Of a stretch of 64,000 nt of DNA, positions 3,444 through 50,084 are shown piece by piece. The position numbers were made by a program, and so were the translations under genes. The notes under the pieces were generated by a model, which saw only the letters and a list, made by a program, of their open reading frames with translations, had not been told where the DNA came from and did not search any database. The DNA is taken from NCBI GenBank assembly GCA_039680605.1, contig JBDKTA010000025.1, positions 62,001 through 126,000 of the forward strand, in the 5' to 3' direction. The DNA is from Planctomycetaceae bacterium (GTDB lineage Bacteria > Planctomycetota > Phycisphaerae > SM23-33). Each line of letters starts with the position of its first letter. Within the stretch, counting starts at the first letter, position 1.

Positions 3444-3445
3444 GC

Positions 3446-7617: not shown

Positions 7618-7625
7618 TGGCGTCC

Positions 7626-25233: not shown

Positions 25234-25254
25234 GGACTTACAGAGGACACGGCC

Positions 25255-25500: not shown

Positions 25501-25629
25501 GCTTTTATCGCCGCAGTCGCGCCCGATTTGGTCGAGCAACCCCATTCTGCTCAAGATCGGCAACATGGTCTTTTCTGACCATCTGATCAGAGAGACAATA
25601 TAACGCGGTTCCCGCGGCTCAGATTCGCC

Positions 25630-26085
25630 TTAATACCACCCGAAGTTTCTACCGTGCGAACCTGCTAGCGTCCGATGCCGCTCATCCACGGCAGTTGCTC
25701 GGGCCAAATGCCCGTCATAGTCCGGGCTGTCGATCTCCACTAACTGAAGATCATAGATCGGATTGGCCCCTCCGTCACGTTTAGTAAATACCGCCGCATA
25801 ATTGGAGCGTCGTTGTATCTGCCCTTCGACAACCGGGAAGACCCCCGCATGAATTTCAGGAACGGCCTCAGAAAGTTCTATCCTCCACATTGCATTGTCT
25901 GGTCGATAGATGGCCCGAAATGAAGCCAGTACCCCGTTCGACAGCCTCATGTCGAGATAGCTGGTGACTCCTCCAGCAAGTCCAAAAAATGGAACTATAT
26001 TTTGGACCAATTCAAGTTCGGTTTGCTGGTGGCCGACCATAGTCCCGCAGTCGATCAATACCGTGTTTGCATTTTGTATGTTCAT
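25630..26085 (-). CDS. Hypothetical protein coupled to a DNA methyltransferase (possible restriction partner)
   Basis: A 151-residue protein starting at ATG 26085, overlapping the methyltransferase stop by 4 bp (ATGA). The family is not recognised. It is mainly beta/alpha with TVLIDCGTMVGHQQTELELV at the N-terminus and RDGGANPIYDLQLVEIDSPD near the C-terminus. Tight coupling to a methyltransferase and an RHH protein in the same AT-richer unit suggests a restriction endonuclease or accessory subunit. No metal-binding triad can be assigned with confidence. Confidence 0.6.
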   Translation of the reverse strand: MNIQNANTVLIDCGTMVGHQQTELELVQNIVPFFGLAGGVTSYLDMRLSNGVLASFRAIYRPDNAMWRIELSEAVPEIHAGVFPVVEGQIQRRSNYAAVFTKRDGGANPIYDLQLVEIDSPDYDGHLARATAVDERHRTLAGSHGRNFGWY

Positions 26086-29257: not shown

Positions 29258-30259
29258 GTGATCAGAGTGGCCGTCATAGGCGCCGGGAACTGGGGCAAGA
29301 ATCTCGTCCGCACGTTCAACGCCACGCCCGGGGCGGAGCTGCGGTACGTCGTCGATGTCAACGAAAAGACGCTCAAGACCCTCGGGGCACTCTATCCCCG
29401 GGCGACCATGACCGCCGACCTCAACCAGGTCCTCCAGGACAAGGATATCGACGCCTGCGTGGTAGCCGTCGACGCCCCCCGCCACCACGCGGTCGCCAAG
29501 GCCTGCCTCCAGGCCGGCAAGCATACGTATGTGGAAAAACCGCTGGCCCTCAACGGCCGGGAAGCCACCGAGCTGGTCGACCTGGCCACGGCCAACGGGC
29601 GGCACCTCATGGTCGGGCACCTGCTGGAGTACCACCCGGCCGTCAATTACATGAAGGACATGATCGCCCAGGAGTCGGTCGGGCAGCCGCTCTACCTCTA
29701 CTTCCACCGCGTGAACCTGGGCGTGGTTCGCACGCAGGAGAACGCGTGGTGGTCGCTGGCCCCGCACGACATTTCGGTGGCGTGCTATCTCTTCGGCGCC
29801 CAGCCCGTCAGCGTCACGGCTACGGGGCAGTCGTTTCTTCAGCCGGGCATCGAGGACGTGGTTTTCGCGACGCTGCGGTTCGCCGACGGCAAGCTGGCGC
29901 ACATTCACGTGTCATGGCTGGACCCGCACAAGATCCGCAAAGTCACGCTGGTGGGGTCGCAGAAGATGGTCGTCTTCGACGACATGGACGCCTCGCAGAA
30001 GATCTGGATTCACGACAAGGGCGCCGTCGTCAAGAGCGTCGAGAGCTACGTCGAGGCCATCACCCTGCGCACCGGCGACATCCTGATCCCCCGGATCTCC
30101 TCGCAGGAACCGCTGATGCTGGAATGCCAGCACTTCATCGAGAGCATCACCAAGAACACGACCCCCCGCAGCGACGGACAGGACGGGCTGAGAGTCGTCC
30201 GCGTTCTGGAAGCGGGCAGCCGCAGCCTCCAGGAAGGCGGAAAACCGGTTACCATATAA
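29258..30259 (+). CDS. wbpB: Gfo/Idh/MocA oxidoreductase, WbpB/WlbA-like
   Basis: A 333-residue NAD-dependent dehydrogenase beginning at GTG 29258 behind AAAGGAG. It has the Rossmann motif GAGNWGKNL and the Gfo/Idh/MocA signature YVEKPLALNG with the catalytic Lys, and DISVACYLFG further on. WbpB/WlbA oxidises UDP-GlcNAcA at C3. The next two genes encode the transaminase and acetyltransferase of the same route, which supports this assignment. The pathway leads to UDP-2,3-diacetamido-2,3-dideoxy-uronic acid, a precursor of surface polysaccharide. The 160 bp upstream hold a short palindrome (ATGGGC-AAGT-GCCCAT, 29110-29125). Confidence 0.85.
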   Translation: MIRVAVIGAGNWGKNLVRTFNATPGAELRYVVDVNEKTLKTLGALYPRATMTADLNQVLQDKDIDACVVAVDAPRHHAVAKACLQAGKHTYVEKPLALNGREATELVDLATANGRHLMVGHLLEYHPAVNYMKDMIAQESVGQPLYLYFHRVNLGVVRTQENAWWSLAPHDISVACYLFGAQPVSVTATGQSFLQPGIEDVVFATLRFADGKLAHIHVSWLDPHKIRKVTLVGSQKMVVFDDMDASQKIWIHDKGAVVKSVESYVEAITLRTGDILIPRISSQEPLMLECQHFIESITKNTTPRSDGQDGLRVVRVLEAGSRSLQEGGKPVTI

Positions 30260-30300
30260 GGCTTATTCGCCGGCCCGGCCGGGCGGCGGAAGGAGATATC

Positions 30301-30972
30301 ATGGCGCAGCAGGACACGCCCTATTTCGTGCATCCGACGAGTTTCGTCGACGCCGGCGCACAGATCGGCGAAGGGACCAAGATCTGGCACTTCAGCCACG
30401 TCTACGCCAAGGCGAAGATCGGCAAGAAGTGCATCTTCGGGCAGAACGTGTCGATCGCCGACGGAGTCGAGATCGGCAACAACGTCAAGGTGCAGAACAA
30501 CGTGTCGATCTACACCGGCACGGTGATCGAAGACGACGTGTTCCTGGGCCCCAGTTGCGTGCTGACCAACGTGACGAACCCGCGCTCGCAGGTGGTTCGC
30601 CACAGCCTGTATGAAACGACGCTCCTGCGCCGCGGCGCCACGGTGGGCGCCAACGCGACCATCGTCTGCGGGACGGTGCTGGGGCGGTATTGCTTCGTGG
30701 CCGCCGGCGCGGTCGTGGCCAAAAACGCCCCCGACTACGCCCTGATGATGGGCGTGCCCGCACGCCAGGCCGGCTGGGTCAGCCGCCACGGTCACCGCCT
30801 GGGCGCCCCCGACGCCTCGGGCGTCATGCGCTGCCCCGAGAGCGGCTTTCGCTACAAAGAGGTCTCGCCCGGCGTCCTGCGATGCCTGGACCTGGACGAA
30901 GAAGCCCCCCTGCCCGCCAATTTGGCCGTAGGCACAAAATCCTACGACGAGTTCAAGAACGCCATCGCCTGA
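30301..30972 (+). CDS. wbpD: UDP-3-amino-sugar N-acetyltransferase, WbpD/WlbB-like
   Basis: A 223-residue left-handed beta-helix acetyltransferase. Hexapeptide repeats cover residues 15-150 (IGEGTKIWHFSHV, IGKKCIFGQNVSI, IGNNVKVQNNVSI), typical of WbpD, which acetylates the 3-amino group of UDP-GlcNAc3NA using acetyl-CoA. The C-terminal 50 residues form an added segment with MRCPESGFRYKEV. A strong ribosome site (GGAAGGAG) lies 6 bp before the ATG. It sits between the dehydrogenase and transaminase of the same pathway. Confidence 0.9.
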   Translation: MAQQDTPYFVHPTSFVDAGAQIGEGTKIWHFSHVYAKAKIGKKCIFGQNVSIADGVEIGNNVKVQNNVSIYTGTVIEDDVFLGPSCVLTNVTNPRSQVVRHSLYETTLLRRGATVGANATIVCGTVLGRYCFVAAGAVVAKNAPDYALMMGVPARQAGWVSRHGHRLGAPDASGVMRCPESGFRYKEVSPGVLRCLDLDEEAPLPANLAVGTKSYDEFKNAIA

Positions 30973-30989
30973 AAGGAACGGAAACCCAA

Positions 30990-32093
30990 ATGAAAGTCCC
31001 GCTGCTCGATCTCAAGGCCCAGTACGCCCCCATTCGCGAACAGGTCCTCAAGGCCATCACCGAGGTGGTCGATTCCTGCCAGTTCATCAACGGTCCCCAG
31101 GTCAAGCAGTTGGAGGACGCCGTCGCCAAGTATTGCGGTTGCGCCGCGGCTGTCGGCGTCTCCAGCGGCACCGACGCCCTGCTCTGCGCGATGATGGCGC
31201 TGGGCCTGGGCGAGGGCGACGAGATCATCACGACGCCCTACACATTCTTCGCCACCGCCGGCTGCATCGCCCGCACCGGGGCCAAGCCGGTCTTCGTCGA
31301 CATCGAGCCCGACACGTTCAACATCGACGCGACGAAGATCGAAGCGGCGATCACTCCAAAGACCAAGGCGATTCTGCCGGTCCACCTGTTCGGTCAGATG
31401 GCCGACATGGACCCGATCATGGCCATCGCCGCCAAGCACGGCCTGCTCGTGATCGAAGACGCCGCCCAGTCGATCGGTTCGCTGTATAAAGGCCGCCCCG
31501 CCGGCAGCATCGGCACGGTGGGCTGCTTCAGCTTCTTCCCCTCCAAGAACCTGGGCACCCTGGGCGACGGCGGGATGATCGTGACGCAGTCGGCCGAGCT
31601 GGGCGAGCGCCTGGCGGTCTTCCGCAACCACGGGTCCAAGCCCAAGTACTACCACAAGTTCGTCGGCGGCAACTTCCGCCTCGATACGGTCCACGCCGCG
31701 GCGCTGCTGGTCAAGCTGCCGCACCTGGAGAAATGGTCGCAGATGCGCCGGGCCAACGCGGCGCGGTATACGTCCAACTTTGCCGGCTTTGCGCCGGTGC
31801 GCACGCCGGTCATCCGCGACTGGAACACCAGCATTTTCAACCAGTACATCATCACCGTGCCGCGGCGCGACGAGCTGCAGGCGTTCCTGAAGCAGAACGA
31901 CATCGGCACCGAGGTCTACTACCCCGTCAGCATGCACGAGCAGGAATGCTTCGCCTCTCTGGGCTGCCGCAAGGGCGACTTCCCCAACAGCGAAAAGGCC
32001 GAGGCGTCCACGCTGGCCCTGCCGATCTACTCCGAACTCGCCGGCGAGCAGATCGACTTCGTCGCCGGGAAGATCAAGGAGTTTCTGTCCTGA
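30990..32093 (+). CDS. wbpE: DegT/DnrJ/EryC1 sugar aminotransferase, WbpE-like
   Basis: A 367-residue PLP enzyme starting at ATG 30990. The PLP lysine lies in GCFSFFPSKNLGTLGDGG, preceded by the VIEDAAQSIGS Asp/Gln motif. WbpE transfers an amino group from glutamate to the 3-keto sugar made by WbpB. With the neighbouring dehydrogenase and acetyltransferase the set converts UDP-GlcNAcA to UDP-GlcNAc3NAcA. The UDP-GlcNAc 6-dehydrogenase (WbpA) and 2-epimerase (WbpI) are not in this window. Confidence 0.9.
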   Translation: MKVPLLDLKAQYAPIREQVLKAITEVVDSCQFINGPQVKQLEDAVAKYCGCAAAVGVSSGTDALLCAMMALGLGEGDEIITTPYTFFATAGCIARTGAKPVFVDIEPDTFNIDATKIEAAITPKTKAILPVHLFGQMADMDPIMAIAAKHGLLVIEDAAQSIGSLYKGRPAGSIGTVGCFSFFPSKNLGTLGDGGMIVTQSAELGERLAVFRNHGSKPKYYHKFVGGNFRLDTVHAAALLVKLPHLEKWSQMRRANAARYTSNFAGFAPVRTPVIRDWNTSIFNQYIITVPRRDELQAFLKQNDIGTEVYYPVSMHEQECFASLGCRKGDFPNSEKAEASTLALPIYSELAGEQIDFVAGKIKEFLS

Positions 32094-32250: not shown

Positions 32251-33381
32251 ATGTCTGATACGAAGAAGGTCCTCCTGGTCACAGGGCACTATCTGCTGTC
32301 CAAGCGGCGGGCTGGATTCCATGCCTTGGCCGAGGCGTTCTGGCAAAAGGGCTGGCAGGTGCTGTTCTTTACCGGAGCCCTGAGCCGCCTGTCCCGCCTG
32401 AGGCGCGACTATCGCCTGCAGTACCCGGTGCTGGCCGAGGCCAATCGCATCCGCCCGGTCAAGGACCGGATGGACAGCTTCGTCTGGTACACGCCCTGGC
32501 ATCCGGCGTCGGTCCGCATGCGGTGGCTCGAGCGCCTCACGTACCGATGGTTCGCCCGGTACGGCCGCCAGGACATCGGCCCCAGCCGGGCGTTCGTCGA
32601 AGAGGCCGACCTGATCATCTTCGAGAGCACCCCGGCGCTGCTGCTGACAGAGGCCTTCAAGGAGATCAACCCGCGGGCGCGCTACGTCTACCGCGTCTCG
32701 GACGACATGCGACTGCTGGGCAACCACCGCGTGGTCCTGGACGCCCAGGACCGCCTGGCCGGCACGTTCGATTTGATCAGCGTCCCCAGCGAACCGCTGC
32801 TGGAGAAGTTCCGGCAGTACCCCCAGACGCGGCTGCACCTGCACGGCATCAACAAGGATGTCTTCGACGCCCCGCACGAGAACCCGTACGACCCGGCGTG
32901 GGAGGCCAACTGCCTGTTCGTGGGCGCCAGCCGCCTGGATTACGCGGTGCTGGCCGCGGCGGCGGGTCAATTCAAGCGGTGGGCGTTCCACGTCATCGGG
33001 CCTTTCAGGAATCTGCCCCGCGCCGCCAACATCATCGCCCACGGCGAGATGGAGTTTCTCAAGACCGTGCCGTACATCCGCCACGCGGACATCGGCCTGC
33101 ACACGCTCGCGCACGTTCCGGGCGCGGAGTGTTTCACCAACAGCCTCAAGGTCATGCAGTACTGCTACTGCCGCCTGCCCATCGTCGCGCCGGAGTTCCT
33201 CCGCACCCCGCGCCGCAACATGTTCTACTATCGCCCCGGCGACGCCGAATCGATCGCCCACGCCCTGCGCCAGGCCCGAGCGTTCGATCGGGCGGCCTAC
33301 ACCCGCGACGACATCCTGTCATGGACAGACCTGGCGAGCCTGTTGGCCGGCGAAACGACGTCCGCCGCCACACCGCGCTAA
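32251..33381 (+). CDS. GumK-like glycosyltransferase
   Basis: A 376-residue GT-B enzyme. Its N-terminal half matches the GumK pattern (KRRAGFHALAEAFWQKGWQV, WYTPWHPAS, DLIIFESTPALLL, RYVYRVSDDM), and the second half has a donor-binding region with ECFTNSLKVMQYCYCRLPIV. GumK adds glucuronic acid to a lipid-linked oligosaccharide in xanthan synthesis. Next to a uronic-acid pathway, transfer of a uronic sugar is a good guess. It starts 12 bp after a large palindrome, so transcription from the wbp-like genes may be modulated there. Confidence 0.78.
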   Translation: MSDTKKVLLVTGHYLLSKRRAGFHALAEAFWQKGWQVLFFTGALSRLSRLRRDYRLQYPVLAEANRIRPVKDRMDSFVWYTPWHPASVRMRWLERLTYRWFARYGRQDIGPSRAFVEEADLIIFESTPALLLTEAFKEINPRARYVYRVSDDMRLLGNHRVVLDAQDRLAGTFDLISVPSEPLLEKFRQYPQTRLHLHGINKDVFDAPHENPYDPAWEANCLFVGASRLDYAVLAAAAGQFKRWAFHVIGPFRNLPRAANIIAHGEMEFLKTVPYIRHADIGLHTLAHVPGAECFTNSLKVMQYCYCRLPIVAPEFLRTPRRNMFYYRPGDAESIAHALRQARAFDRAAYTRDDILSWTDLASLLAGETTSAATPR

Positions 33382-33564: not shown

Positions 33565-34632
33565 TTAGAGCCGCGGCTGGTCGCATACCTGGCGGTAGAG
33601 CGATGCGACCTGCCGGGCGGTGTTGCCCCAGGTGTATTTCGCCGCCTGCGCCAGGCCCTTGGCCGCCAGTTCCCTGGCCACATCGTCGCGCAGGGTTTGC
33701 TTGACCGCCTCGGCCAGCGCCGCCGGGTCCGACACGTCGACCTGCAAGGCGGCCTGTCCGCACACTTCGTCCAGCGACGAGCCTCGCCCGCACACCACCG
33801 GGCATCCGCACGCCATCGCCTCGAGCACCGGAAGGCCGAAGCCCTCGTAGGCGCTTGGAAACAGCAGGCACCGCGCCCCCGCGTATAACAGCCGCAGATG
33901 TTCGTCATCCACATACCCGCACTGGATGATGTCCCCGCCGTCGTCGCTGCGCTGCCCGACGGACACAAGCTTGAGCCCGGGATACTCCGCGGCCAGCCGC
34001 TCAAAACACTGCCTTGCCGCCTTGAAGCCCTTGTAGGGCTTGCGGTCGCCCATGCAGATGATGTACGCGTCGAGCCCCAGCGACTTGCTGGCCGCGGCGA
34101 TCTGGTCGGCGGCGACCGGCCTGAAAGCCTCCGACACGCCGTTGGGAATCACCGTAATTTTGCCCGCAGCCTGGGGGAGCATTTCCGCAAGATCGCGCCG
34201 CGTCGATTCGCTGGGGCAGATGATCGCCCCGGCCATGCCGGCGGCACGCTTGAGCATTCTTGAGGCGATGAAGACCTTGCCCCGGCCGAACATCTGGGGG
34301 AACTTGAAGTGGATCAGGTCATGCACCGTGACGACAAACGGCGTGGGCGGCCGCACCGGAACGTTGTAGTGCGGGAAGTGCCAAAGATCCGCCGGCCCCA
34401 GGCTACGAAAGAACCCCCCGCCCCACCACTGCTCGCGCAGCGAATAGAGGGCCGCGTCATAAGGGGCGACCTGTCCGGCCGATCGGGCTTCGTCCGCCGC
34501 GCCGGCCATCACCAGGCGCAGCCCCGCATCGACGCGCGGCAGGTGCGTGCAGAGTTCCTTGACGTAGCGCCCGATGCCGGTCCGCCCCCAGAGGCGCGCG
34601 TCGATCACGATGGTTTGCGGGCAAGTCATCAC
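33565..34632 (-). CDS. GT4-family glycosyltransferase
   Basis: A 355-residue GT-B enzyme. The N-terminus has IDARLWGRTGIGRYVKEL, the acceptor-side loop of GT4 mannosyl/rhamnosyl-type transferases. The donor site is SAYEGFGLPVLEAMACGCPV (E-x7-E). It is the last gene of a minus-strand operon (GT4, asnB-like, GT4) and overlaps the asnB-like stop by 4 bp (ATGA). No membrane segment is present, so it should act at the inner face of the membrane. Confidence 0.88.
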   Translation of the reverse strand: MMTCPQTIVIDARLWGRTGIGRYVKELCTHLPRVDAGLRLVMAGAADEARSAGQVAPYDAALYSLREQWWGGGFFRSLGPADLWHFPHYNVPVRPPTPFVVTVHDLIHFKFPQMFGRGKVFIASRMLKRAAGMAGAIICPSESTRRDLAEMLPQAAGKITVIPNGVSEAFRPVAADQIAAASKSLGLDAYIICMGDRKPYKGFKAARQCFERLAAEYPGLKLVSVGQRSDDGGDIIQCGYVDDEHLRLLYAGARCLLFPSAYEGFGLPVLEAMACGCPVVCGRGSSLDEVCGQAALQVDVSDPAALAEAVKQTLRDDVARELAAKGLAQAAKYTWGNTARQVASLYRQVCDQPRL

Positions 34633-36560
34633 TCGGGAAATTCCACGTCAAATTGTTCCGCCCAGGCGATCAGGTTCACGCACCGCCACATGCAGTGATC
34701 ATAATCGCTCTGGCCGCGGCTCATCCGGCTGAACATGTCCATCATCGCTTCGTGCCTCAGGGCCGGTACGGCGCGGGCTCGCGGCGAGGTCAACACCTGC
34801 TGGTACCAGCCGCCCAGCCCCTGCAGCCATTCCAGACCCGGCGTGGCAAATCCGATCTTGTCTTTGCGGTCGAGGATGACATTGGGCACTGTCCCGCGCA
34901 TGGCCGCACGGAAGACGCGCTTGCCGGGGTAATCGCGGGAGACAAGGTATTCCTCGGGCAGCGAGAACACGAACTCGACCAGCGCCGGCGTGAGGAAGGG
35001 GACGCGGCTTTCGATCGAATACGCCATCGAGTTGTGGTCTTCGTATCGCAGCAGTTGCGGCAGGCTGTTGTCGAAGATGGACTGATTGAGCGTCTGTCGC
35101 AGAACGTCGGGCCCCTTGACGCGCCAGATCGGCTCGCCGGCGACGCCATGGCGGGCGAACCAGCGTGCGTCGATCCATCGCGGCAGCAGACCTTTGCCGC
35201 CCAGGCGGCGCCCGATTTTCTGCAACGCCGTCGGCGCCAGCAATCCGCCGGCGTGCAGCAGCATGCCCAGGCCGCTCTGGCCGCCCAGGCGCGACGCCCC
35301 GCGCCAGAAGTGCAGCGCGGGTCCCAGCCGCATCTGTCGCAGCAGCGAAGCGAGGCGGCAGGAAAGATACGGCACGTAGCCGGCCAGCATCTCATCGGCC
35401 CCTTGGCCGTCGAGCATCACCTTCATGCCCGCCTCGTGCGCTCGGCGGAAGACGCGAAACTGCGCATAGATGCTCGGGCTTCCGAACGGCTCGTCCTGCG
35501 CCGCCAGCAGCGCGCCCAGATCCGAGAGCAGGTCCCGCGGCGAAAGGGCGATCTTGTGCGACTGCGCCGCGGCCCCGGCGGTGATCACGTCGACGTACCG
35601 CTCTTCGCTCAGGGCGTTGTCGGCCACGTAGCTGAAGGTCGACAGGTCGCTCTGGGGCCCCAGGCCTGCGCGTGCGAGCATGGTGATGGCCGAGGAGTCC
35701 AGCCCACCCGACAGCGCCACGCCCAGCGGCACGTCGCTGCGCAGGTGCATCGTGACGCTCTGGGAAAACAGCTCGCCAAGCCGCCGGGCGGCTTCGTCGA
35801 AGGACAGATCGGTGGTGCGGCTGAGATCCAGCCGCCAGTACCGCACGGGGCTCAGCCGCGCCGGCGCGTCCAGCGACACCTTGACGTAATGCGACGACGG
35901 CAGAGCGTAGATGCCCTCGAAGAAGGTCTCCTCGCCGCTGTCGCTGAGGCCGAACCGCAGGTACTTGTAGACCCGCGCGGCGTTGGCTCGCCGCGGCAGA
36001 GCGGGCAGTTGCAGCAGCGCCTTGATCTCGGAGGCGAAGGCCAGCCCGCCCCGCCAGAACGTGTAGTAGAGCGGTTTGATCCCGAAGAAATCCCGCGCCA
36101 GCACCAGCGTGCGCTCGGCGGCGTCCCAGATGCCAAAGGCGAACATCCCCACCAGGCGGGTCAGGCAGCCCTCGCGCCACTGGCTGTATGCCGCCAGCAG
36201 AACTTCCGTGTCGCACTCGGAACGGAACCGGTGCCCGGCTTCTTCCAGCTCGCGGCGCAGGGCCCGGTAGTTGTAGATCATCCCGTTGTAGACGATGGTG
36301 TAGCGTCCGTCGGGCGAGGACATCGGCTGCGCGCCGGCCTCGGAGGGGTCGATGACGGACAACCGGCGGTGGACCATCGCCACGGAGGGTTCGCGAAGAT
36401 CTGTCGCGCTGCGGGAGATAACGGAGGCGCCTCGCCCGTTCCATCCGAAGAACCCTTCGCCGTCGGGCCCGCGATGCGCCAGGCAGCGGCCGATCGCCGT
36501 CAGCAGCTCGGCGTCGATGCCGCCCTGTCCGCCCGCCAATATTCCGGCAATACCGCACAT
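34629..36560 (-). CDS. asnB: Asparagine synthase-like glutamine amidotransferase
   Basis: A 643-residue protein from ATG 36560, placed so that Cys2 (MCGIAG) is the glutaminase nucleophile. The class II amidotransferase domain holds LAHRGPDGEG and VYNGMIYNY. The synthetase domain has the PP-loop ALSGGLDSSAI and LDGQGADEMLAGY. In polysaccharide clusters, such enzymes amidate uronic-acid carboxyls rather than make free asparagine. The nearby uronic-acid pathway makes this plausible. It lies 8 bp downstream of one GT4 gene and overlaps the next by 4 bp. Confidence 0.9.
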   Translation of the reverse strand: MCGIAGILAGGQGGIDAELLTAIGRCLAHRGPDGEGFFGWNGRGASVISRSATDLREPSVAMVHRRLSVIDPSEAGAQPMSSPDGRYTIVYNGMIYNYRALRRELEEAGHRFRSECDTEVLLAAYSQWREGCLTRLVGMFAFGIWDAAERTLVLARDFFGIKPLYYTFWRGGLAFASEIKALLQLPALPRRANAARVYKYLRFGLSDSGEETFFEGIYALPSSHYVKVSLDAPARLSPVRYWRLDLSRTTDLSFDEAARRLGELFSQSVTMHLRSDVPLGVALSGGLDSSAITMLARAGLGPQSDLSTFSYVADNALSEERYVDVITAGAAAQSHKIALSPRDLLSDLGALLAAQDEPFGSPSIYAQFRVFRRAHEAGMKVMLDGQGADEMLAGYVPYLSCRLASLLRQMRLGPALHFWRGASRLGGQSGLGMLLHAGGLLAPTALQKIGRRLGGKGLLPRWIDARWFARHGVAGEPIWRVKGPDVLRQTLNQSIFDNSLPQLLRYEDHNSMAYSIESRVPFLTPALVEFVFSLPEEYLVSRDYPGKRVFRAAMRGTVPNVILDRKDKIGFATPGLEWLQGLGGWYQQVLTSPRARAVPALRHEAMMDMFSRMSRGQSDYDHCMWRCVNLIAWAEQFDVEFPE

Positions 36561-36568
36561 AGACGCTC

Positions 36569-37798
36569 TCAGACCCCCAGTTCCTGGTAGACCTTCAGCA
36601 ACGCCTGCCGCTGGCGCACCCAGGAATACTTCTCCTGGGCCGCTTGCATACTGGCGGCCGTGAACTCGCCCTTCTGCCGCCGGCTCAGGCAATCTTCAAC
36701 CGCCGAGGCGATCTGCCGCGCCGAGCCCATCGGGTACACCTCGCCGATGCCCTGGTCCTTGACGATCTTGCGAAGCTCCGGAAGATCGCTGGCACAAACG
36801 GGAACCCCCGCCGCGATGAACTCAAAGAGCTTGTTGGGAGTGCAGAAGCGATTATTCAGGATGCCGTCGTCCGTATACGGAATGATCCCCATGTCCGCCA
36901 GGCGCGTGAACCCCAGCAGCCGCGTCTGGCTGACCGGCGGGGCGAAGAAGACGTTGGCGATGCCCTTGCGGGCGCAGGCGGCCTTGAGCGACCTTGCCAA
37001 CTCGCCTTCCCCCAGCATCAACAGGCGAACGTCGGTGCCCAACTCGGCGAAAGCGGCCACGAGGTTCTCCAGGTTCCGCTCCGGGCCGATGTTGCCTTGG
37101 TACAGCACGTTGAGCCCGCCCTTCGGAACTGCGAAGTGCCCCAGGAATTCCTCCCCCGTCACAGCCGCGGGGGGACCGGCCGCCTCATGGCTGTTGTAGA
37201 CGACGGCCGGCATGGCGATGGCGTAGAACTCGACCATTTGCCGGGCGATGGAGTCGTTGACGGTGATGACGCGGTCGGTCTGGCCGATCAGCGACGTCTC
37301 GACGCCTTTCCAGTATTCCTGAAAAGCTTTGTCCTTCACCTGGTACGGCCACAACTCGTGAGAGTCGTAGATGATCTTCGCGCCGGGCGCTATCTCGCGT
37401 TTGAGCTGCACGGCGGCAGGCAGGGTGTCCAGGTCGTGGCAATGGATGACGTCGTACGCGGCCGTCGGGCACCGCCGCACCAGCACCTCGGCGGCGCCGG
37501 CCCGCTTCCACCCGCCACTGGCCCGGTAGAGCCTCTTCTGGACCTGGTAAAACCACGGCCAGGCCTTCAAGAGCGTCTTGCCCTTCTCGACGAACCGTCG
37601 CCGCCAGCCCAGCCCCTGCAGGTCTTGCGAACTGCACAGAACCAACTCCACGCGGCCGTCCAGCAGGCCCTGTTCCACCGCCGCCGGTACGCTCACCAGC
37701 GTGACGCTCCTGCCCGAGTCGGCCAGGGCGTTGGCCTCGGCGACGATGCGGCGGTCGATCCGGGTCGCATGGGCGGAGAGCATCAAGATGTTGGACAT
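36569..37798 (-). CDS. GT4-family glycosyltransferase
   Basis: A 409-residue GT-B transferase, the first gene of the minus-strand operon. It has YDVIHCHDLDTLPAA and IYDSHELWPYQV in the acceptor domain and GGLNVLYQGNIGPERNLENL, then FEFIAAGVPVCASDLPEL in the donor domain. A good promoter lies 30-55 bp upstream. The substrate is not predictable. Confidence 0.87.
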   Translation of the reverse strand: MSNILMLSAHATRIDRRIVAEANALADSGRSVTLVSVPAAVEQGLLDGRVELVLCSSQDLQGLGWRRRFVEKGKTLLKAWPWFYQVQKRLYRASGGWKRAGAAEVLVRRCPTAAYDVIHCHDLDTLPAAVQLKREIAPGAKIIYDSHELWPYQVKDKAFQEYWKGVETSLIGQTDRVITVNDSIARQMVEFYAIAMPAVVYNSHEAAGPPAAVTGEEFLGHFAVPKGGLNVLYQGNIGPERNLENLVAAFAELGTDVRLLMLGEGELARSLKAACARKGIANVFFAPPVSQTRLLGFTRLADMGIIPYTDDGILNNRFCTPNKLFEFIAAGVPVCASDLPELRKIVKDQGIGEVYPMGSARQIASAVEDCLSRRQKGEFTAASMQAAQEKYSWVRQRQALLKVYQELGV

Positions 37799-37920: not shown

Positions 37921-38661
37921 ATGCCGATGTTCAGTCTCAAAACCTATGAGCACCTGATCCGCTCGCTGGGGGCGACCGCTCGGCCGTTCGTCACGTTCGC
38001 TCGTGGCTCGGCCGGCCTGGCGCTGCGGCTGGACGTCGACTACGACCTGGCGTTGGCCGCCGCCGTGGCGGCGATCAACCAGCGCCTGGGCGTTAGAGGC
38101 ACGTTCTTCATCCAGGTCTCATCGGCCGTGTACAACGCCTGCAGCCCCGCCGACCGCCAGGCCATCGCTCAGATCGGCGAGGCCGGCCAGTTCATCGGTC
38201 TGCACCACGACGCCCGCGGCACGGTTTTGGACAGCGACCAGCTCCAGCGCGAGTACGACGTGCTCGAACGCCTGACCCCGCAGGTGCAGCGGGTCGTGGC
38301 GTGGCACAATCCGCCAGCCGACACCGCGTCGCTCGATGCCGCCGCCGAGAAGGCGGGCTTCCTCAGCACCTACTGTCCGGAGTTTTTCGGACCCGACCGC
38401 TACGTCTCCGACAGCAACTGCCGGCACCGCGCCGAGCAGATCGCCGCCTTCGCCGGCGCCTGCCGCGCCCCACTGGTGCAGGTGCTGCTCCATCCAGTGA
38501 TCTGGAGTTTCGACGCCGACGGGATGGAAGACGTCCTTGCGGCCCTGTTTGGCGCCAAGGTAAACCAGCTCGGCAGGGACTTCATGCAGAATCGCCTGTG
38601 GACCAACGCGCTGTGCCAACGGGCCCTGCGCATGCTGGACGCCGAGGTTCGCAAGGCATGA
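37921..38661 (+). CDS. Polysaccharide deacetylase-like protein
   Basis: A 246-residue protein. GLALRLDVDYD (about 34-44) carries the Asp-Asp metal site and GLHHDARG (about 97-104) the His pair of the NodB-like deacetylase fold. AWHNPP further on matches a later motif. No signal peptide is present, so the substrate is probably a cytoplasmic sugar nucleotide or lipid-linked sugar. A TAGAAT box ends 8 bp before the ATG, which would place the transcript start at the start codon (leaderless). The stop overlaps the formyltransferase start by 4 bp. Confidence 0.65.
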   Translation: MPMFSLKTYEHLIRSLGATARPFVTFARGSAGLALRLDVDYDLALAAAVAAINQRLGVRGTFFIQVSSAVYNACSPADRQAIAQIGEAGQFIGLHHDARGTVLDSDQLQREYDVLERLTPQVQRVVAWHNPPADTASLDAAAEKAGFLSTYCPEFFGPDRYVSDSNCRHRAEQIAAFAGACRAPLVQVLLHPVIWSFDADGMEDVLAALFGAKVNQLGRDFMQNRLWTNALCQRALRMLDAEVRKA

Positions 38662-39443
38662 GCCAGTCGCGCTCCATCGTCCTGTTCGCCGACGAAGTCG
38701 GAATACCGCTGGCGCTGGCGTCGGCCGGCGCCGGCGCGATCGCCTGCGTCGTGGTCGACCCCAAACGCGCCACTGCCGTGGCCGCGGCCGAGCAGGCCTG
38801 CCGACCATTGGCGATCCCCGTCCTGGCCCACCCTTCACCGCAAGGGCGCCGGGAATTCGAGGCCGCCGTCGGCGACCTGTCTGCCTCACTGGGCCTGGTG
38901 GTTTCGTACAATCGGATTCTCTGGCCGGACCTGCTTGGGCTGTTCCCCCGCGGCGTGGTGAACCTCCACGGCAGCCGCCTGCCGCAATATCGCGGCGCCA
39001 ACGTCCTGCAGTGGGCCATTATCAACGGCGAGACGCAGACCGCCATGACGATGCATTACGTCGACCAAGGCGTCGACACCGGGGCGATCATCGCCCAGCG
39101 CGACGTCCCGATCGCCCACGCCGACACCGCCCTGGCGGTTCGCGAGAAACTGATGTCGGCCGCCGCAGCGCTGCTTGAGGAATACCTGCCCCGCCTCGTC
39201 TGCGGGCGGCTGTCCGCCCACGCCCAGGACGAGGCTTTGGCAAGAGTCTGGCCTCGGCGCCGCCCGCAGGACGGGCGCATCGACTGGTCCTGGAGCGACC
39301 GGAAGATCCACGACCTGATCCGGGCGCTGGTGCGGCCTTGGCCTGGAGCGTTCTACCGCGACCGCGCGGGGCAGGACGTCACCATCGACCGTTACATGAG
39401 CCTGGGCGAGATTGCGGCGCTGCGCCGCGAGGTGGGGTCATGA
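38658..39443 (+). CDS. Sugar N-formyltransferase-like protein
   Basis: A 261-residue member of the formyltransferase family (Fmt/ArnA N-terminal domain). It has the catalytic core NLHGSRLPQYRGANVLQWAI, in which Asn and His activate N10-formyl-THF, and the Asp in DQGVDTGAII. The length is right for a sugar formyltransferase such as those for Qui4N or Fuc3N, and too short for methionyl-tRNA formyltransferase. The gene is coupled to both neighbours by ATGA overlaps. With the upstream deacetylase it could replace an N-acetyl by an N-formyl group. Confidence 0.82.
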   Translation: MSQSRSIVLFADEVGIPLALASAGAGAIACVVVDPKRATAVAAAEQACRPLAIPVLAHPSPQGRREFEAAVGDLSASLGLVVSYNRILWPDLLGLFPRGVVNLHGSRLPQYRGANVLQWAIINGETQTAMTMHYVDQGVDTGAIIAQRDVPIAHADTALAVREKLMSAAAALLEEYLPRLVCGRLSAHAQDEALARVWPRRRPQDGRIDWSWSDRKIHDLIRALVRPWPGAFYRDRAGQDVTIDRYMSLGEIAALRREVGS

Positions 39444-40153
39444 TTGCCGCCGCCCATCAACCCAACTTCTTCCCCTGGATGGGGTACTTCCGCAAGATCG
39501 CCCGGTCGGAGGTGTTCGTCTTCCTGGACGCGGTGCCCTTCGGGTCCAAGGGAACCTGGATCAACCGCGTCAAGATGATGGTCTCGGGCGCCGCCCAGTG
39601 GGTCATCTGCCCCGTGGCCAGCGCCCACGAGAAACGCATCTGCGAGATCACCATCGTCGAACCCTCCCCCTGGCGAAAGAAGCTCATCAAGACCCTGGAG
39701 ATGAACTATGGCAAGGCCGCCTGCTTCAAGGAGGTCATGCCCTGGATCGAACCGATGATTCTGCGCCAGGAAGAAAATCTCTCCCGGTACAACATCCAGA
39801 ACATCCTGGAGATCTGCCAGCGCCTCGGGCTGCACCGGCGATTCGTGCTGCACTCGGAACTGCCTCCGGGCGAACCTCACGAACTGCTGGGAAGCGAGCG
39901 GCTGGCCGCCATCTGTTCGCAACTCGGCGCCGGCGTCTACCTCGCCGGCGACGGGGCCGACGACTACGAGCAGCAGACCGCCTACGACCGAAAGGGCCTG
40001 CGCCTGGAGCGTCTGGGCTTTGTGCCCCAGCCGTATCCCCAGGCGGGCGCCGCCGGGTTCGTCGCCGGCCTGTCTGTTCTGGACTGCCTGTTCAACGTGG
40101 GCGTCGAGGCAACCGCTTCGATGCTCACACACGACCCTGGAGCCCCACAATGA
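39440..40153 (+). CDS. WbqC family protein
   Basis: A 237-residue protein whose N-terminus (MIAAAHQPNFFPWMGYFRKI, then VFLDAVPF and TWINRVKMM) is the WbqC signature. WbqC proteins occur in many O-antigen clusters next to aminotransferases, formyltransferases or methyltransferases. They are thought to form an amide or acyl bond with an amino sugar, but the reaction is not well defined. The start overlaps the formyltransferase stop and its own stop overlaps the methyltransferase start (ATGA in both cases). Confidence 0.9.
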   Translation: MIAAAHQPNFFPWMGYFRKIARSEVFVFLDAVPFGSKGTWINRVKMMVSGAAQWVICPVASAHEKRICEITIVEPSPWRKKLIKTLEMNYGKAACFKEVMPWIEPMILRQEENLSRYNIQNILEICQRLGLHRRFVLHSELPPGEPHELLGSERLAAICSQLGAGVYLAGDGADDYEQQTAYDRKGLRLERLGFVPQPYPQAGAAGFVAGLSVLDCLFNVGVEATASMLTHDPGAPQ

Positions 40154-41160
40154 CCCGTTTGGTTTGCCCATCGGACCAGTCGGCCCTGAGCGCGGCCGGC
40201 GAGAGCCTGACCTGCCCCTCGTGCGGCCGCAGCTATCCCGTGCGAGAGGGCATCGCTCGCTTCGTCTCGGCGATCGCGGACGATTCACAGAAGCAGGTCG
40301 AGGCGGGTTTCGCCTACAAGTGGACGCGCGACGAGTGGGGCTTCGAGCCCAAGCACATCGAGTTGATGCAGGAGTTCTTCTGGACGCGGTTCGGTTTTTC
40401 GAGCCATGCCGACGTGGCGGCGTTGTTCGGCGGCAAGACCGTCCTGCACGCGGGGATCGGCTCGGGGCAGTGCGAGCAGCATTATCTTCAGCACTGCCGC
40501 GAGGTCTGGGGACTGGATATTTCGCAGAGCGTCGACGCGGCGCAGCGCAACTGGCACAAGCACTACCCTGACCTGGCCGGCAGACTGCACCTGGTGCAGG
40601 CCGACCTGATGAGCATGCCGTTTGACGACGGCGCGTTCGACATCGTCTTCAGCGACGGCGTGCTGCACCACACGCCCGACACGCGTGCGGCGCTGGGCGC
40701 CATCACCGCCAAGGTGCGCCCCGGCGGGCTGGTGGTGTTCTACGTATACAAAAAGAAGGCGCCCATCCGCGAGTTCGTCGACACGTACCTCCGCGACCGG
40801 ATATCGGACCTGCCGCCCGAGCAGGCCTGGCAGGCGATGGAACCGCTGACCGCCCTGGCGCGCGACTTGTCCCGCCAGAAACTCCAGATCGCCGTCCCGC
40901 AGGACATCCCGCTGCTGGAGCTACAGGCCGGCACTTTCGACCTGCAGCGATGGCTGTATTGGAACGTCATGAAGCTCTATTGGAATGAGCTGCTTGATTT
41001 CGACGGCAACAACCACGTAAATTACGACTGGTATTATCCCAAGTACGCTTGGCGACACACGGCCCAGGAGGTTCAGAACTGGCTCGATGAGCTGCGTCTG
41101 GAAACCCTGCACCTGCAGGCGGGCGATTCAGGAATCAGCGTCATAGCCAGGAAGGGTTGA
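40150..41160 (+). CDS. SAM-dependent methyltransferase with N-terminal zinc ribbon
   Basis: A 336-residue protein from ATG 40150. The first 45 residues form a Trm112-like ribbon (CPSDQSALS ... LTCPSCGRSYPVREGIARFV). A class I methyltransferase follows: motif I VLHAGIGSGQCE, then FDIVFSDGVLHHTPDT (motif IV region). The C-terminal 130 residues are specific. The usual motif I E/DxGxGxG is altered (HAGIGSGQ). Likely O- or N-methylation of a sugar or a lipid-linked glycan. It lies 2 bp before the first radical SAM gene. Confidence 0.85.
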   Translation: MTRLVCPSDQSALSAAGESLTCPSCGRSYPVREGIARFVSAIADDSQKQVEAGFAYKWTRDEWGFEPKHIELMQEFFWTRFGFSSHADVAALFGGKTVLHAGIGSGQCEQHYLQHCREVWGLDISQSVDAAQRNWHKHYPDLAGRLHLVQADLMSMPFDDGAFDIVFSDGVLHHTPDTRAALGAITAKVRPGGLVVFYVYKKKAPIREFVDTYLRDRISDLPPEQAWQAMEPLTALARDLSRQKLQIAVPQDIPLLELQAGTFDLQRWLYWNVMKLYWNELLDFDGNNHVNYDWYYPKYAWRHTAQEVQNWLDELRLETLHLQAGDSGISVIARKG

Positions 41161-41161
41161 G

Positions 41162-42145
41162 ATGGGAATCCACGATTTAAGCTCCAGCGAAAAGACGGCC
41201 GCTCGCCGCCAGTACCAGCAGCCGGACTTTCCGTTCGTCTGCGGCATCTCCCTGGGCGAGTACCCGTGCAACCGCCGCTGCCGCATGTGCCCGATGTACA
41301 CGGCTCCGCCCAAGGTCGAGCGTTACATCACCGACGAGATCCTCGAACAGGCCTGCCGGCAGGTCGGACAGCGGAAGGTCAATCTCGAACTGTCCGCCTA
41401 CGGCGAAACGTTCATGCACCCTCGGGCCGACGAGTATCTCTTCACCGCCCGGCGGATGTGCCCCAACGCCCAGATCGTCGTGGCCACCAACGGCGCCCTG
41501 CTGACGCGCGAGCGATGCGAGAAGATCGTCGACAGCGGGATCGACCACCTGTCCTTCTCGCTCGACGCCGGGTCGGCCGAAAGCTACCAGTGGCTGACCG
41601 GCACGAGCGACTATGACGACGTCTGCCGCAACCTCGAGACGCTCGCGGCCGTCCGCGACCAGCGCGGGGGCAAACACCTTCGGATCACCACGCACATCAT
41701 CGGCATCAAGGAGCTCGCCCACGAGTTCGAGGCCTTCGAGGCCCGCTGGAAAGGTATCGTCGACTCGGCGGTGGTGCGTCCTTACGGCAACTGGGCGGGG
41801 ATGGTCAACGACAACGGCGTGACGCCGGCGCAGAAGCAGGAGATCCCGGCCGAGCGGTATCCCTGCGCGTGGCTGTGGTACGCCACGAAGATCGAGCCTA
41901 ACGGCGACGTCTCGAAATGTTTCGTCCACATCACGGGCGACCTTCACCCCGTGGGCAATATCATGCAGGAACCCCTCGAGTCGATCTGGCGCGGCGAAAA
42001 GATGAACCGCCTGCGGGAACTCCACATGACCAACCGCTGCGGCGAGCTGGACCTGTGTCCCGACTGCATCGTCTGGTCGCTGTTTCCCAAGTTCTGGAAG
42101 CAGCGCAAGCGCCTGGGGCTCTTTAAAACCGGAGAGTGGAAATGA
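41162..42145 (+). CDS. Radical SAM protein with C-terminal SPASM-like cluster (1 of 3)
   Basis: A 327-residue protein. The radical SAM cluster is CNRRCRMC (C36, C40, C43). ATNGALLT and SLDAGSAESY are core barrel strands. Cysteines in YPCAW, VSKCFVH and GELDLCPDCIVW form an auxiliary [4Fe-4S] binding region as in SPASM proteins. These enzymes oxidise, epimerise or crosslink; the aminoglycoside- and glycan-linked members act on sugars or peptides. The gene opens a run of three radical SAM genes inside a formyl-sugar operon, and its stop overlaps the next start. Confidence 0.85.
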   Translation: MGIHDLSSSEKTAARRQYQQPDFPFVCGISLGEYPCNRRCRMCPMYTAPPKVERYITDEILEQACRQVGQRKVNLELSAYGETFMHPRADEYLFTARRMCPNAQIVVATNGALLTRERCEKIVDSGIDHLSFSLDAGSAESYQWLTGTSDYDDVCRNLETLAAVRDQRGGKHLRITTHIIGIKELAHEFEAFEARWKGIVDSAVVRPYGNWAGMVNDNGVTPAQKQEIPAERYPCAWLWYATKIEPNGDVSKCFVHITGDLHPVGNIMQEPLESIWRGEKMNRLRELHMTNRCGELDLCPDCIVWSLFPKFWKQRKRLGLFKTGEWK

Positions 42146-43206
42146 GCGTGGCAGGAAGACTCAAGCGATTGGTGGCCTCTGCCCTGGGACGCAAGACTCC
42201 CCCCGCCGTCGAGGCCTCCGCCGACGCGCCCAGGGTCGCGCCGCCCTTCCCCCACTACATCTGCATGGAGCTGACCAACGCCTGCAATCTCCGCTGCATC
42301 CAGTGCATCTACCAGGGCGGCAAGGGCGACCACTACCGCGGGCAGATCGGCTACATGGACGTCGACCTGGCCCGGCGGGTGCTCGACCAGCTCCAGCCGA
42401 CGCGCTGCGGCGTCATGCTCAACGGCGACGGCGAGGCGCTGCTGCATCCCAAGTTCCAGGTCATCGCTCGCCATGCGGTGAGCCTGGGGCTCTCCAGCGT
42501 GTACTTCAACACCAACGGCACGCTGCTGTCGCGCGAGTTCACCGACGAGTTCGTGACGTACTTCAAAGGCGCCGTCTCGATCAGCCTTGACGGTTTCAAG
42601 GAAAGCCACGACCGCATCCGGCGCGGCTCCTCCTACGACAAGGTCGTCGCCAACATCGACTACCTGCTGGCCCGGATCGGCGAAACCGGCGCGCCCATCA
42701 CGCTCTCGGCGGCGTACTGCAATTATGACCAGCCCAAGGGCGAGCGCCTGGAGTTCGCCAAGTACTGGACGCAGCGCCTGGGCAGCGTCTCGGTGTGCGA
42801 GGTATACGACCAGGACTACCGGATCATCTCCGACCAGATCAACAAGCCCCAGAAGCCCGACCGCGTCCGCTGCGGCGTGCCCTGGGAGACGTTCATCGTC
42901 CGCTGGCAGGGGCCCGTCGTGCCCTGCTCGAACTGCTTCCCCCTCGGCGACGCCGGCGGCATCGTCCTGGGCGACTCGCGAACGCAGACCCTCCTGGACA
43001 TCTGGAACGGCCCGGTCCTCGCCGACCTGCGCCGACGCACCGAGGCCTGGGACCTCGAAGGCACCATCTGTCAGCCGTGCGAACGATGGAACATGTACGT
43101 CACGTTGGACCCGCGCGAAGAGGAGGGTATGATGGTCACCCGGACCGGCGTGTTCAGCACGTACAAGAGAAAGGACCCCGCGCCCGATGCGCCTGGTGGC
43201 CATTGA
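42142..43206 (+). CDS. Radical SAM/SPASM-like protein (2 of 3)
   Basis: A 354-residue protein from ATG 42142, overlapping the previous stop. The radical SAM motif is CNLRCIQC (C48, C52, C55). NTNGTLLS and ISLDGFKESHD follow. The C-terminal part has RCGVPWETF, VVPCSNCFPLGD and TICQPCERW, an auxiliary cluster region. The first 38 residues are not part of the barrel. It differs clearly from the first protein, so this is not a recent duplication. Its end overlaps the third gene by 20 bp. Confidence 0.85.
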   Translation: MSVAGRLKRLVASALGRKTPPAVEASADAPRVAPPFPHYICMELTNACNLRCIQCIYQGGKGDHYRGQIGYMDVDLARRVLDQLQPTRCGVMLNGDGEALLHPKFQVIARHAVSLGLSSVYFNTNGTLLSREFTDEFVTYFKGAVSISLDGFKESHDRIRRGSSYDKVVANIDYLLARIGETGAPITLSAAYCNYDQPKGERLEFAKYWTQRLGSVSVCEVYDQDYRIISDQINKPQKPDRVRCGVPWETFIVRWQGPVVPCSNCFPLGDAGGIVLGDSRTQTLLDIWNGPVLADLRRRTEAWDLEGTICQPCERWNMYVTLDPREEEGMMVTRTGVFSTYKRKDPAPDAPGGH

Positions 43207-44725
43207 AAATCTCGACCCCTCATCCGGCAACACGCCGGCGGAGATAGCGACGCTCTTCGGCGCTGACGCCTGGCTGACGCTGAACTGCGGCGGCACATGC
43301 ACCCCCACCGGCGGCGACAAGCGCCTGCTCGCGGCCGCCGGGGCCTCACCCGCCAGCCCGCTGGACTTCTACCGCCGCCTGCTCGGCGCGCTGGACGCCC
43401 CGGCCCAGATCGTCCGCCTGCGCAACCCGGCCTATCCGCTGCACCGCCTGCTGTCGGCCGAAATGGACGAAGCGTTTGGGCCCGCACAGTACGACTATGT
43501 CCTGTCCACCGCCGCCGAGTGCGGCCTGACGGGGTACTTCGCCGAACGGTTCAATGCCGCCGCCCTCGACCGGATCAGTCACACCGCCCAGGCCGTCATG
43601 CCCGAGGGCTACTTCAACGGCATGGCGACGCAGCGATGCGGGCGGCACTGGTTCTCGCTGGATCTGCGGCGGTTTTATCTGCAGGACAATTTCGAGCGCC
43701 TGTTCGATTCGCCGCGCAGCCTGTGCGTCAACGCGATTCCCACGTGCAACTATCGCTGCGAGAAATGCCAGTACCACTCGCCGCGCGTCGGGCAGCGCCG
43801 CGACTGGCCGCCGGCGATGACTGTCGAGAAGTTCCAGCTCATGCTCGATCGCACCAAGGCGTACAAACGCCTGGCCAGCGTCTGCCCCACCATCAGCGGC
43901 GAACCGCTGCTGCATCCGCAGATCGACACCCTGGTGCGCCTGACCAAGAAAGCCGGCTACAGCTCGTCCTTCGCCACCAACGCCGCCCTGCTGGACGGCG
44001 AGATGACCGCCCGCCTGCTCGACGCCGGACTCGATGGCATTGCCTTCAGCGTCGATAGCTGCGACCCGCAGACGTACCAGGCACTTCAGCACGGCAACCT
44101 CGAAGCCGTCGAAGGCAACATCCTGCACTTCCAGCAAGAGGCCGCCAAACGCCAGCGCCCCTGCCCGATGACGATGATCTGCGTCGTCTCCAAGGCCAAC
44201 GAGTCGCAGGTCGAGGCTTACCGCGATCGCTGGCTCGGCCGGGGCATTGCGGTGGTCTTCTCGGCTGAGCATGACATCGAGAACAACAATACCGCCTCGT
44301 TTGCCCATTCGCGGTGGGGCCCGTCCCAGCGGATGCCTTGCCATTCGCTCTGGCACGGTCTGTACCTCCAGAACGACGGGCGCCTCGTGACCTGCGGCGC
44401 CACGGCAGGCTCCGACGGCCTCAAGGACAACTTCTTCGAGCAGGAGCCCCAGAGCCTGTGGCGCTGCCACGCGATGGAGACCCTCCGCCGCCAGCAGTTG
44501 ACCGGCCAGCGCCCAGGTTACTGCGGTATGTTCTCCTGCTGGACCGGGCTGATGAATACCTGGGCGTATGAGGACGGCCGCCTGATCAACCACACCCTGG
44601 GCACGTGGATGGAACCGCTCCCCCCGCCGCTCTCGGCGCCGCAGGCAACGCTCGAGTCGGAACACCAACCCTCCCGCTCGATACTACGCCGAGCCCTGCG
44701 CTCGCTGCGCCGCCGCCTGGGGTAA
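43187..44725 (+). CDS. Radical SAM/SPASM-like protein with an extra N-terminal domain (3 of 3)
   Basis: A 512-residue protein from ATG 43187. The first 180 residues form a domain not assigned to a family. The radical SAM motif is CNYRCEKC (C187, C191, C194), followed by ATNAALLDG and FSVDSCDPQTYQ. The C-terminus has MPCHSLWHGLY, RLVTCGAT and GYCGMFSC, an auxiliary cluster region. It is the last gene of the operon, 12 bp from a convergent gene. It may work as a pair or trio with the two preceding proteins. Confidence 0.82.
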   Translation: MRLVAIENLDPSSGNTPAEIATLFGADAWLTLNCGGTCTPTGGDKRLLAAAGASPASPLDFYRRLLGALDAPAQIVRLRNPAYPLHRLLSAEMDEAFGPAQYDYVLSTAAECGLTGYFAERFNAAALDRISHTAQAVMPEGYFNGMATQRCGRHWFSLDLRRFYLQDNFERLFDSPRSLCVNAIPTCNYRCEKCQYHSPRVGQRRDWPPAMTVEKFQLMLDRTKAYKRLASVCPTISGEPLLHPQIDTLVRLTKKAGYSSSFATNAALLDGEMTARLLDAGLDGIAFSVDSCDPQTYQALQHGNLEAVEGNILHFQQEAAKRQRPCPMTMICVVSKANESQVEAYRDRWLGRGIAVVFSAEHDIENNNTASFAHSRWGPSQRMPCHSLWHGLYLQNDGRLVTCGATAGSDGLKDNFFEQEPQSLWRCHAMETLRRQQLTGQRPGYCGMFSCWTGLMNTWAYEDGRLINHTLGTWMEPLPPPLSAPQATLESEHQPSRSILRRALRSLRRRLG

Positions 44726-49994: not shown

Positions 49995-50084
49995 CATCGC
50001 AACTCCAGTGCAGCGTTCCTGCCGCCCCATGGCGACCGATGTGCTTTATATATCGGCCGACCGAAAAGTTACGGTCAGGAATCG

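Follow-up and report, generated by a model that had tools for sequence, protein, structure and literature searches.

A seven-gene polysaccharide-decoration operon combining a WbqC protein with three radical SAM proteins in a Planctomycetaceae bacterium

The operon and its seven proteins

The 64,000-nucleotide stretch of DNA analysed here (the window; from contig JBDKTA010000025.1 of the Planctomycetaceae bacterium assembly GCA_039680605.1) carries a polysaccharide locus in which seven open reading frames (ORFs), called g1 to g7 below, lie tightly packed on the plus strand at 37921-44725. Four junctions are 4-bp ATGA overlaps (g1/g2, g2/g3, g3/g4 and, with an ATG start for g6, g5/g6), g6 and g7 overlap by 20 bp, and g4 and g5 are separated by a 1-bp gap. 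The five overlaps and one gap at the six junctions confirm the single tight operon described in an earlier reading made from the letters alone (the sequence-only reading). Its first gene lies 122 bp from a glycosyltransferase gene that is read divergently, and 12 bp separate its end from a convergent ORF. This set is a real, intact and partly recurring polysaccharide-decoration operon, for whose individual genes we infer all functions given below. The family calls of the sequence-only reading held by Pfam for the formyltransferase, WbqC, methyltransferase and radical S-adenosylmethionine (SAM) proteins, while the first protein had no curated match and the last no Pfam SPASM match.

The first gene, g1 (37921..38661), encodes a divergent polysaccharide-deacetylase-like protein of 246 aa, which is 24-30% identical to 14 relatives and shares with all of them R36, D38, H95, H129, Y161, S163, S165, H191 and W195 (15-protein alignment). 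A relative from a Nitrospirota metagenome-assembled genome (MAG) weakly matches Polysacc_deac_1 (E 5e-4, below the curated cut-off). Given the lack of a curated match to g1 itself, the sub-cut-off match of this relative and the shared residues, g1 is probably a deacetylase at the superfamily level; a search of solved structures for the g1 family gave none that was convincing. The next protein, g2 (38658..39443, 261 aa), is a formyltransferase of the ArnA/Fmt superfamily with both Formyl_trans_N (100 bits, E 1.5e-28) and Formyl_trans_C (E 3.8e-8). It has the Formyl_trans_N fold with the Asn-His-Asp catalytic residues by which sugar N-formyltransferases are recognized (N102, H104 and D140, of which H104 and D140 are invariant among relatives). 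Its nearest homology is to ArnA, PRK06988 and Fmt, and no substrate-specific model scored above its cut-off.

The third protein, g3 (39440..40153, 237 aa), belongs to the WbqC family, matching PF08889 with 201 bits over residues 7-225 (E 2.7e-59; gathering score 21.3 bits). Nothing about function follows from the Pfam name, and we found no functional study of WbqC in the literature searched, nor one of spiro-SPASM proteins or of WbqC together with radical SAM and formyltransferase genes. WbqC genes are spread over many phyla of bacteria and are present in at least one haloarchaeon. An AF2 model of g3 (81 sequences; pLDDT 94.6, pTM 0.92) was compared with solved structures by VIA-align, a tool that gives Z 7-8 as the typical top value where a model has no clear counterpart. 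The best match was BshC (4wbd; Z 14.7, rmsd 3.2, 226/237 residues) and the second a class I lysyl-tRNA synthetase (1irx, Z 12.6), with the remainder at Z of about 8 or less. The predicted model thus shares its core fold with ligases resembling class I aminoacyl-tRNA synthetases (aaRS), and we propose from the model that g3 may be a minimal ligase of the BshC/class I aaRS-like type. BshC is described as the putative ligase that adds cysteine to GlcN-malate once a deacetylase has acted (PMC4360819). Proof of kinship between WbqC and BshC was also sought in their sequences but not obtained, the profile comparison by hhalign being weak and an hmmsearch of the PDB giving only a chance match.

The fourth gene, g4 (40150..41160), encodes a SAM-dependent methyltransferase of 336 aa (Methyltransf_11, E 1.2e-17) with an N-terminal zinc ribbon resembling Trm112p (E 1.2e-6), 59% identical to a Brocadiaceae protein from a similar cluster.

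The last three genes encode radical SAM proteins, all of which keep the radical SAM cysteines, and none matched an NCBIfam model above its cut-off. Two of them are radical SAM/SPASM proteins by Pfam: g5 (41162..42145, 327 aa; Radical_SAM E 1.3e-19, SPASM E 1.9e-11) and g6 (42142..43206, 354 aa from the ATG at 42142 or 356 aa from a GTG at 42136; Radical_SAM E 4.7e-17, SPASM E 1.5e-11). In g5 the CxxxCxxC motif is formed by C36, C40 and C43 and the auxiliary-cluster cysteines are C235, C253, C299 and C302; all seven are unchanged across four aligned proteins from different genomes. The largest protein, g7 (43187..44725, 512 aa; Radical_SAM E 2e-13), has C385 and C403 as C-terminal auxiliary-cluster cysteines, and both are invariant in a 32-protein alignment. 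The auxiliary-cluster cysteines are therefore kept in the relatives of g5 and of g7; their absence from relatives would have counted against the sequence-only reading.

The core of g7 has its best structural neighbours at Z 19-21 and 15-22% identity, where the sugar-type enzymes BlsE, BtrN and DesII are tied with the peptide-type enzyme SuiB. With these it has in common CxxxCxxC and C-terminal auxiliary-cluster cysteines, and because its core is equally near to the sugar enzymes and the peptide enzyme, the substrate class of g7 cannot be told from it. The first ~170 residues (window 43187-43700) had no Pfam match at E<=10 and no jackhmmer relative among 7458 ORFs; structure prediction, which the sequence-only reading had suggested for this region, yielded a low-confidence model. 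A nucleotidyltransferase-like origin suspected by eye was dropped on these same grounds. Apart from its own copy, g7 had no full-length relative among 35 genomes of the same family and 392 of the phylum, and plasmid matches covered the radical SAM core only. Like the Spiro-SPASM proteins (TIGR04321), g7 has a long N-terminal region before a radical SAM-SPASM core, but the two regions do not align, and membership was rejected for g5 (68.5 bits), g6 (38.2) and g7 (39.5) against the curated cut-off of 250.

Recurrence of the gene set and the surrounding locus

The sequence-only reading had proposed looking in other genomes for a conserved set of formyltransferase, WbqC and radical SAM genes, and part of this set was found, while the trio of g5, g6 and g7 was not found together in any other genome. 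A scan with the g4 methyltransferase profile against 84,980 species genomes gave 64 loci in many phyla. The locus in the Nitrospirota MAG (L212) has a WlbA-WlbB fusion, DegT, a UDP-GlcNAc 2-epimerase-like gene, radical SAM, DegT, AsnB and methyltransferase genes, and continues with a FemAB-type gene, another formyltransferase and the run radical SAM (g5 type)-deacetylase-formyltransferase-WbqC before the Wzt/Wzm exporter genes. A Brocadiaceae MAG (L164/L086) has DegT-deacetylase-formyltransferase-WbqC-Wzt-Wzm, with the deacetylase, formyltransferase and WbqC genes in the order seen in the window, and Planctomycetota loci (L191/L085) hold radical SAM, methyltransferase, deacetylase-like and WbqC genes. 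Much of the set is also found in other phyla, so its genes have not come together by chance.

Within ~10 kb of the 79 WbqC genes of the phylum, DegT genes were found in 35 cases, radical SAM genes in 16 and formyltransferase genes in seven, all lower bounds because many contigs are short. Plasmids carry similar combinations: radical SAM-DegT-AsnB-methyltransferase on a Smac51 plasmid, DegT-radical SAM-methyltransferase-WbqC on a Solidesulfovibrio plasmid, several radical SAM genes on a Brachyspira rfb plasmid (PMC4267127), and WbqC directly after DegT on Rhizobium and Hymenobacter plasmids. The view that radical SAM genes are unusual in polysaccharide loci has to be given up, since they lie near 16/79 WbqC genes and within the Solidesulfovibrio and Brachyspira plasmid clusters.

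A deacetylase-like gene adjoins WbqC in Azospirillum and in the haloarchaeon Natrinema; the latter pair lies on a Natrinema gelatinilyticum plasmid (L286 8914-10537) whose record is unannotated. A tree built from 93 WbqC proteins groups g3 in a six-member clade (SH-aLRT 96), all members of which have a deacetylase-like gene within 9 kb, as co-inheritance of the two genes would have it. Over the whole tree the deacetylase-like-neighbour label requires 4 changes, compared with 11.5 in shuffles, and none of 500 shuffles was as low; the label of one row (L199) rests on another deacetylase subtype. As a neighbouring deacetylase-WbqC pair L199 was rejected, since a sulfotransferase-like ORF lies between its radical SAM gene and WbqC and the deacetylase of the other subtype is further off.

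Upstream of the operon, homologues of WbpB, WbpD and WbpE lie together at 29258-32093 on the plus strand, assigned at the family level. They are a WlbA/WbpB-like Gfo/Idh oxidoreductase of the UDP-GlcNAc(A) 3-dehydrogenase type (29258..30259; NF040723 E 2.1e-47, below the equivalog cut-off), a WlbB/WbpD-like hexapeptide N-acetyltransferase (30301..30972; Hexapep/NeuD-type matches) and a WlbC/WbpE-like DegT aminotransferase (30990..32093; DegT_DnrJ_EryC1 E 3.5e-121). A GumK-like glucuronosyltransferase gene follows on the same strand (32251..33381; GumK_N E 2.8e-56). On the minus strand are a GT4 glycosyltransferase (33565..34632; Glyco_trans_1_4 E 1.7e-21), an AsnB-type amidotransferase (34629..36560; Asn_synthase E 3e-64, GATase_7 E 1.4e-46; TIGR01536 above and TIGR03108 below cut-off) for which we propose a WbpS-like role in uronamide formation, and the GT4 glycosyltransferase divergent from g1 (36569..37798; Glycos_transf_1 E 2.7e-13). 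The same polysaccharide region includes a WcaJ-type undecaprenyl-phosphate sugar phosphotransferase (21323..22816, plus strand; TIGR03023, 456.7 bits, cut-off 410.75). To judge by their families, these upstream genes are those that one would look for in the making of a 2,3-diamino-2,3-dideoxy-uronic acid (uronamide) polysaccharide.

Other features of the window were also recorded. A defence island beside the locus (1533-12543, minus strand) contains HsdM-, HsdS- and HsdR-like type I restriction-modification genes, an AAA ATPase with an AbiEii-type domain and a GmrSD-like restriction enzyme. The stretch from the WcaJ-type initiating transferase gene to the sugar genes holds two N4/N6 DNA methylase genes, one on each strand (23671-26882), and GC falls there to ~0.52; a patatin-like phospholipase gene (28120-29097) directly precedes the WlbA-like gene, and a GH95-type glycoside hydrolase gene lies downstream (47601-50030, minus strand). 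The AsnB-type enzyme further has a sub-cut-off match to the XrtA/PEP-CTERM amidotransferase model, and the same genome has two exosortase (EpsH) genes above the family cut-off (contig C15, 29187-29903 and 115375-116100). Amino-acid-modified sugars have been speculated to serve as sortase acceptors (PMC7468200).

Proposed function of the operon and alternatives

We propose, with a probability of about one half, that the seven genes serve to assemble and trim an N-acylated amino sugar for a surface polysaccharide, by WbqC aminoacylation followed by formyl capping. The WlbA/B/C-like trio would supply a 2,3-diacetamido-2,3-dideoxy-uronic acid nucleotide sugar, and the AsnB-type enzyme would amidate a carboxylate. 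The deacetylase-like g1 would then remove one N-acetyl group and expose an amine, taking the place of VimE, and g3 would attach an amino acid there, taking the place of VimA. Capping of the amino group by g2 would give an N-formyl-aminoacyl sugar, much as a GNAT protein caps in Escherichia coli O121. Methylation by g4 may fall on the aminoacyl group or the sugar, and g5-g7 may epimerise, oxidise or dehydrate either of them. For methylation of an amino sugar that bears an amino acid, NmbA and bacillithiol offer a parallel (PMC12719100).

The fold of g3 and the analogy with O121 suggest an amino acid:amino sugar ligase role for WbqC, and on this reading an N-formyl-aminoacyl sugar is a more likely product than a simple N-formyl sugar. 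The DegT and deacetylase-like neighbours of WbqC, the six-member clade of its tree, the gene runs of L212 and L164/L086, the Wbp/Vim precedent and the Vibrio anguillarum O2 lipopolysaccharide also speak for the proposal. Amino-sugar decoration with N-deacetylation and N-formylation, as the sequence-only reading had it, is supported. Its guesses at the product divide: the glycopeptide idea came nearer than it seemed, and the simple N-formyl sugar became less likely given the reading of WbqC.

Several points weigh against this proposal. Formylation could instead fall directly on the sugar amine. No Pfam or NCBIfam match was obtained for g1, and the WlbA/B/C assignments fall below equivalog cut-offs. 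Foldseek alone gave no match for the g3 model at E<=0.001, g3 did not match the BshC Pfam family PF10079 (WbqC being its sole Pfam match), and hhalign of WbqC with BshC reached a probability of 11% and an E of 0.0027 for a single comparison, so that kinship with BshC rests on the fold. A shared fold is no demonstration of WbqC function, and BshC activity in vitro had itself not yet been shown as of 2015 (PMC4360819). UDP-sugar 6-dehydrogenase-family and flippase-family genes are on other contigs of the genome, which means that no single locus holds the whole pathway, and some rows of the WbqC tree were obtained via the methyltransferase or by choice of plasmids.

A plain N-formyl sugar, in which g2 would work on a sugar amine in the manner of ArnA-type enzymes, WbqC would, for example, activate or transfer an acyl group other than an amino acid, and the radical SAM proteins would oxidise or epimerise the nucleotide sugar, is a live possibility at well under even odds. 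The homology of g2 to ArnA, PRK06988 and Fmt fits it, as do the sugar-type neighbours of g7 (tied with SuiB), phylum loci (L132, L133 and L139) in which formyltransferase, DegT and WbqC genes come together without a deacetylase-like gene, and a similar gene mix in the Bordetella wbm loci (PMC12243275). It leaves unexplained, however, the BshC/aaRS-like fold of WbqC and the glycyl step of O121.

That the radical SAM trio belongs to a separate pathway, such as peptide or cofactor maturation, and merely shares the operon is unlikely. SPASM enzymes frequently act on peptides, g6 and g7 have no conserved partners in the recurring sets, and the nearest phylum relatives of g7 are mostly outside sugar-gene clusters. 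The tie of radical SAM genes to sugar genes, whose absence elsewhere would have refuted the sequence-only reading, thus gives a divided result: it is mostly lacking around the nearest relatives of g7 and holds for g5, a relative of which stands directly before deacetylase-formyltransferase-WbqC in L212 while another lies within the L191 cluster. Moreover, radical SAM genes adjoin WbqC in several loci, and no precursor-peptide gene was seen, although no dedicated search for small ORFs was made. A mosaic locus with, for example, g6 and g7 as passengers is very unlikely: polysaccharide loci are mosaic and g7 has no full-length relative and an N-terminal region without relatives, but all frames are intact with tight overlaps and g5, g6 and g7 each retain the radical SAM cysteines.

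With the aminoacylation and formyl-capping proposal, the most useful outcome of the operon is a testable function for WbqC. If true, WbqC as a ligase could explain glycyl, alanyl or seryl groups on some O-antigens. This reading in addition links radical SAM/SPASM enzymes, through a recurrent gene neighbourhood, with the decoration of glycans. A wider form of the proposal, in which WbqC proteins are widespread amino acid:amino sugar ligases, the operon makes an N-formyl-aminoacyl and perhaps methylated uronamide and the radical SAM/SPASM enzymes remodel the aminoacyl group on the sugar, is doubtful when taken as a whole; such remodelling, if true, would be a glycan-borne counterpart of peptide maturation.

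Comparison with known systems

The E. coli O121 O-antigen cluster (NZ_CP022407) offers the clearest comparison for WbqC. Its gene order is tviB, epimerase, rfbB, rfbA, DegT, WbqC, GNAT and wzx, followed by glycosyltransferase, serine O-acetyltransferase, wzy, asnB and two further glycosyltransferase genes. The polysaccharide carries N-acetylglycyl on 4-amino-4,6-dideoxyglucose (Qui4N) (PMC3210612) and a GalNAcA amide (PMC7555982). Its WbqC protein (217 bits to PF08889) is homologous to g3 (28% identity, E 2e-27). As DegT would give the amine, the GNAT protein the acetyl group and asnB the amide, the step that remains for WbqC is the addition of glycine, by elimination rather than demonstration. 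As in the window, WbqC thus stands beside an N-acyl capping enzyme (DegT-WbqC-GNAT) in a cluster with an asnB amidotransferase. In contrast to the window, the O121 cap is acetyl and not formyl, the amine comes from an aminotransferase, and the cluster has no deacetylase-like, methyltransferase or radical SAM genes. The WbqC ligase reading has a simple test here, starting from this chemically solved polysaccharide.

In the Wbp/Vim linking-sugar pathway of Porphyromonas gingivalis and Tannerella forsythia, Wbp enzymes make a diacetamido uronate, WbpS amidates it, VimE is a putative deacetylase and VimA transfers serine or glycine (PMC7468200). The window is like it in having Wbp-type genes for a di-N-acetyl uronate and an AsnB-type (WbpS) amidotransferase, and the order proposed here, in which a deacetylase frees an amine that is then aminoacylated, would be the same. 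Candidates for the part of WbpA, the UDP-GlcNAc 6-dehydrogenase of that pathway, are the UDP-sugar dehydrogenase-family genes on other contigs. The deacetylase there is of the CE4 type; g1 has no Pfam match, and one of its relatives matches Polysacc_deac_1 at E 5e-4, below the cut-off. Aminoacyl transfer in Wbp/Vim is by VimA, of the GNAT/FemAB type, but by WbqC in our proposal; Pfam found no GNAT or FemAB (VimA-type) protein among the seven operon proteins, and the Nitrospirota locus L212 has both a FemAB-type gene and WbqC. No formyltransferase, methyltransferase or radical SAM step has been described for Wbp/Vim.

The lipopolysaccharide of Vibrio anguillarum O2, with a diamino-glucuronamide and an N-formyl-L-alanyl group and a cluster including wlbA, wlbC and wlbD (PMC10059132), has a polysaccharide close to the predicted product, with the gene comparison covering wlbA, wlbC and wlbD. 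In the bacillithiol pathway, an amino sugar is likewise deacetylated (BshB), ligated to an amino acid (BshC, putatively) and methylated (NmbA), and WbqC has the core fold of BshC. WbqC is, however, 237 aa long compared with 540 in the BshC chain, with no room for the coiled-coil insert, and the context in the window is a polysaccharide and not a thiol. Formyltransferase, aminotransferase, methyltransferase and asparagine synthase genes are also combined in the wbm O-antigen loci of Bordetella (PMC12243275). The operon is a variant of known O-antigen decoration pathways.

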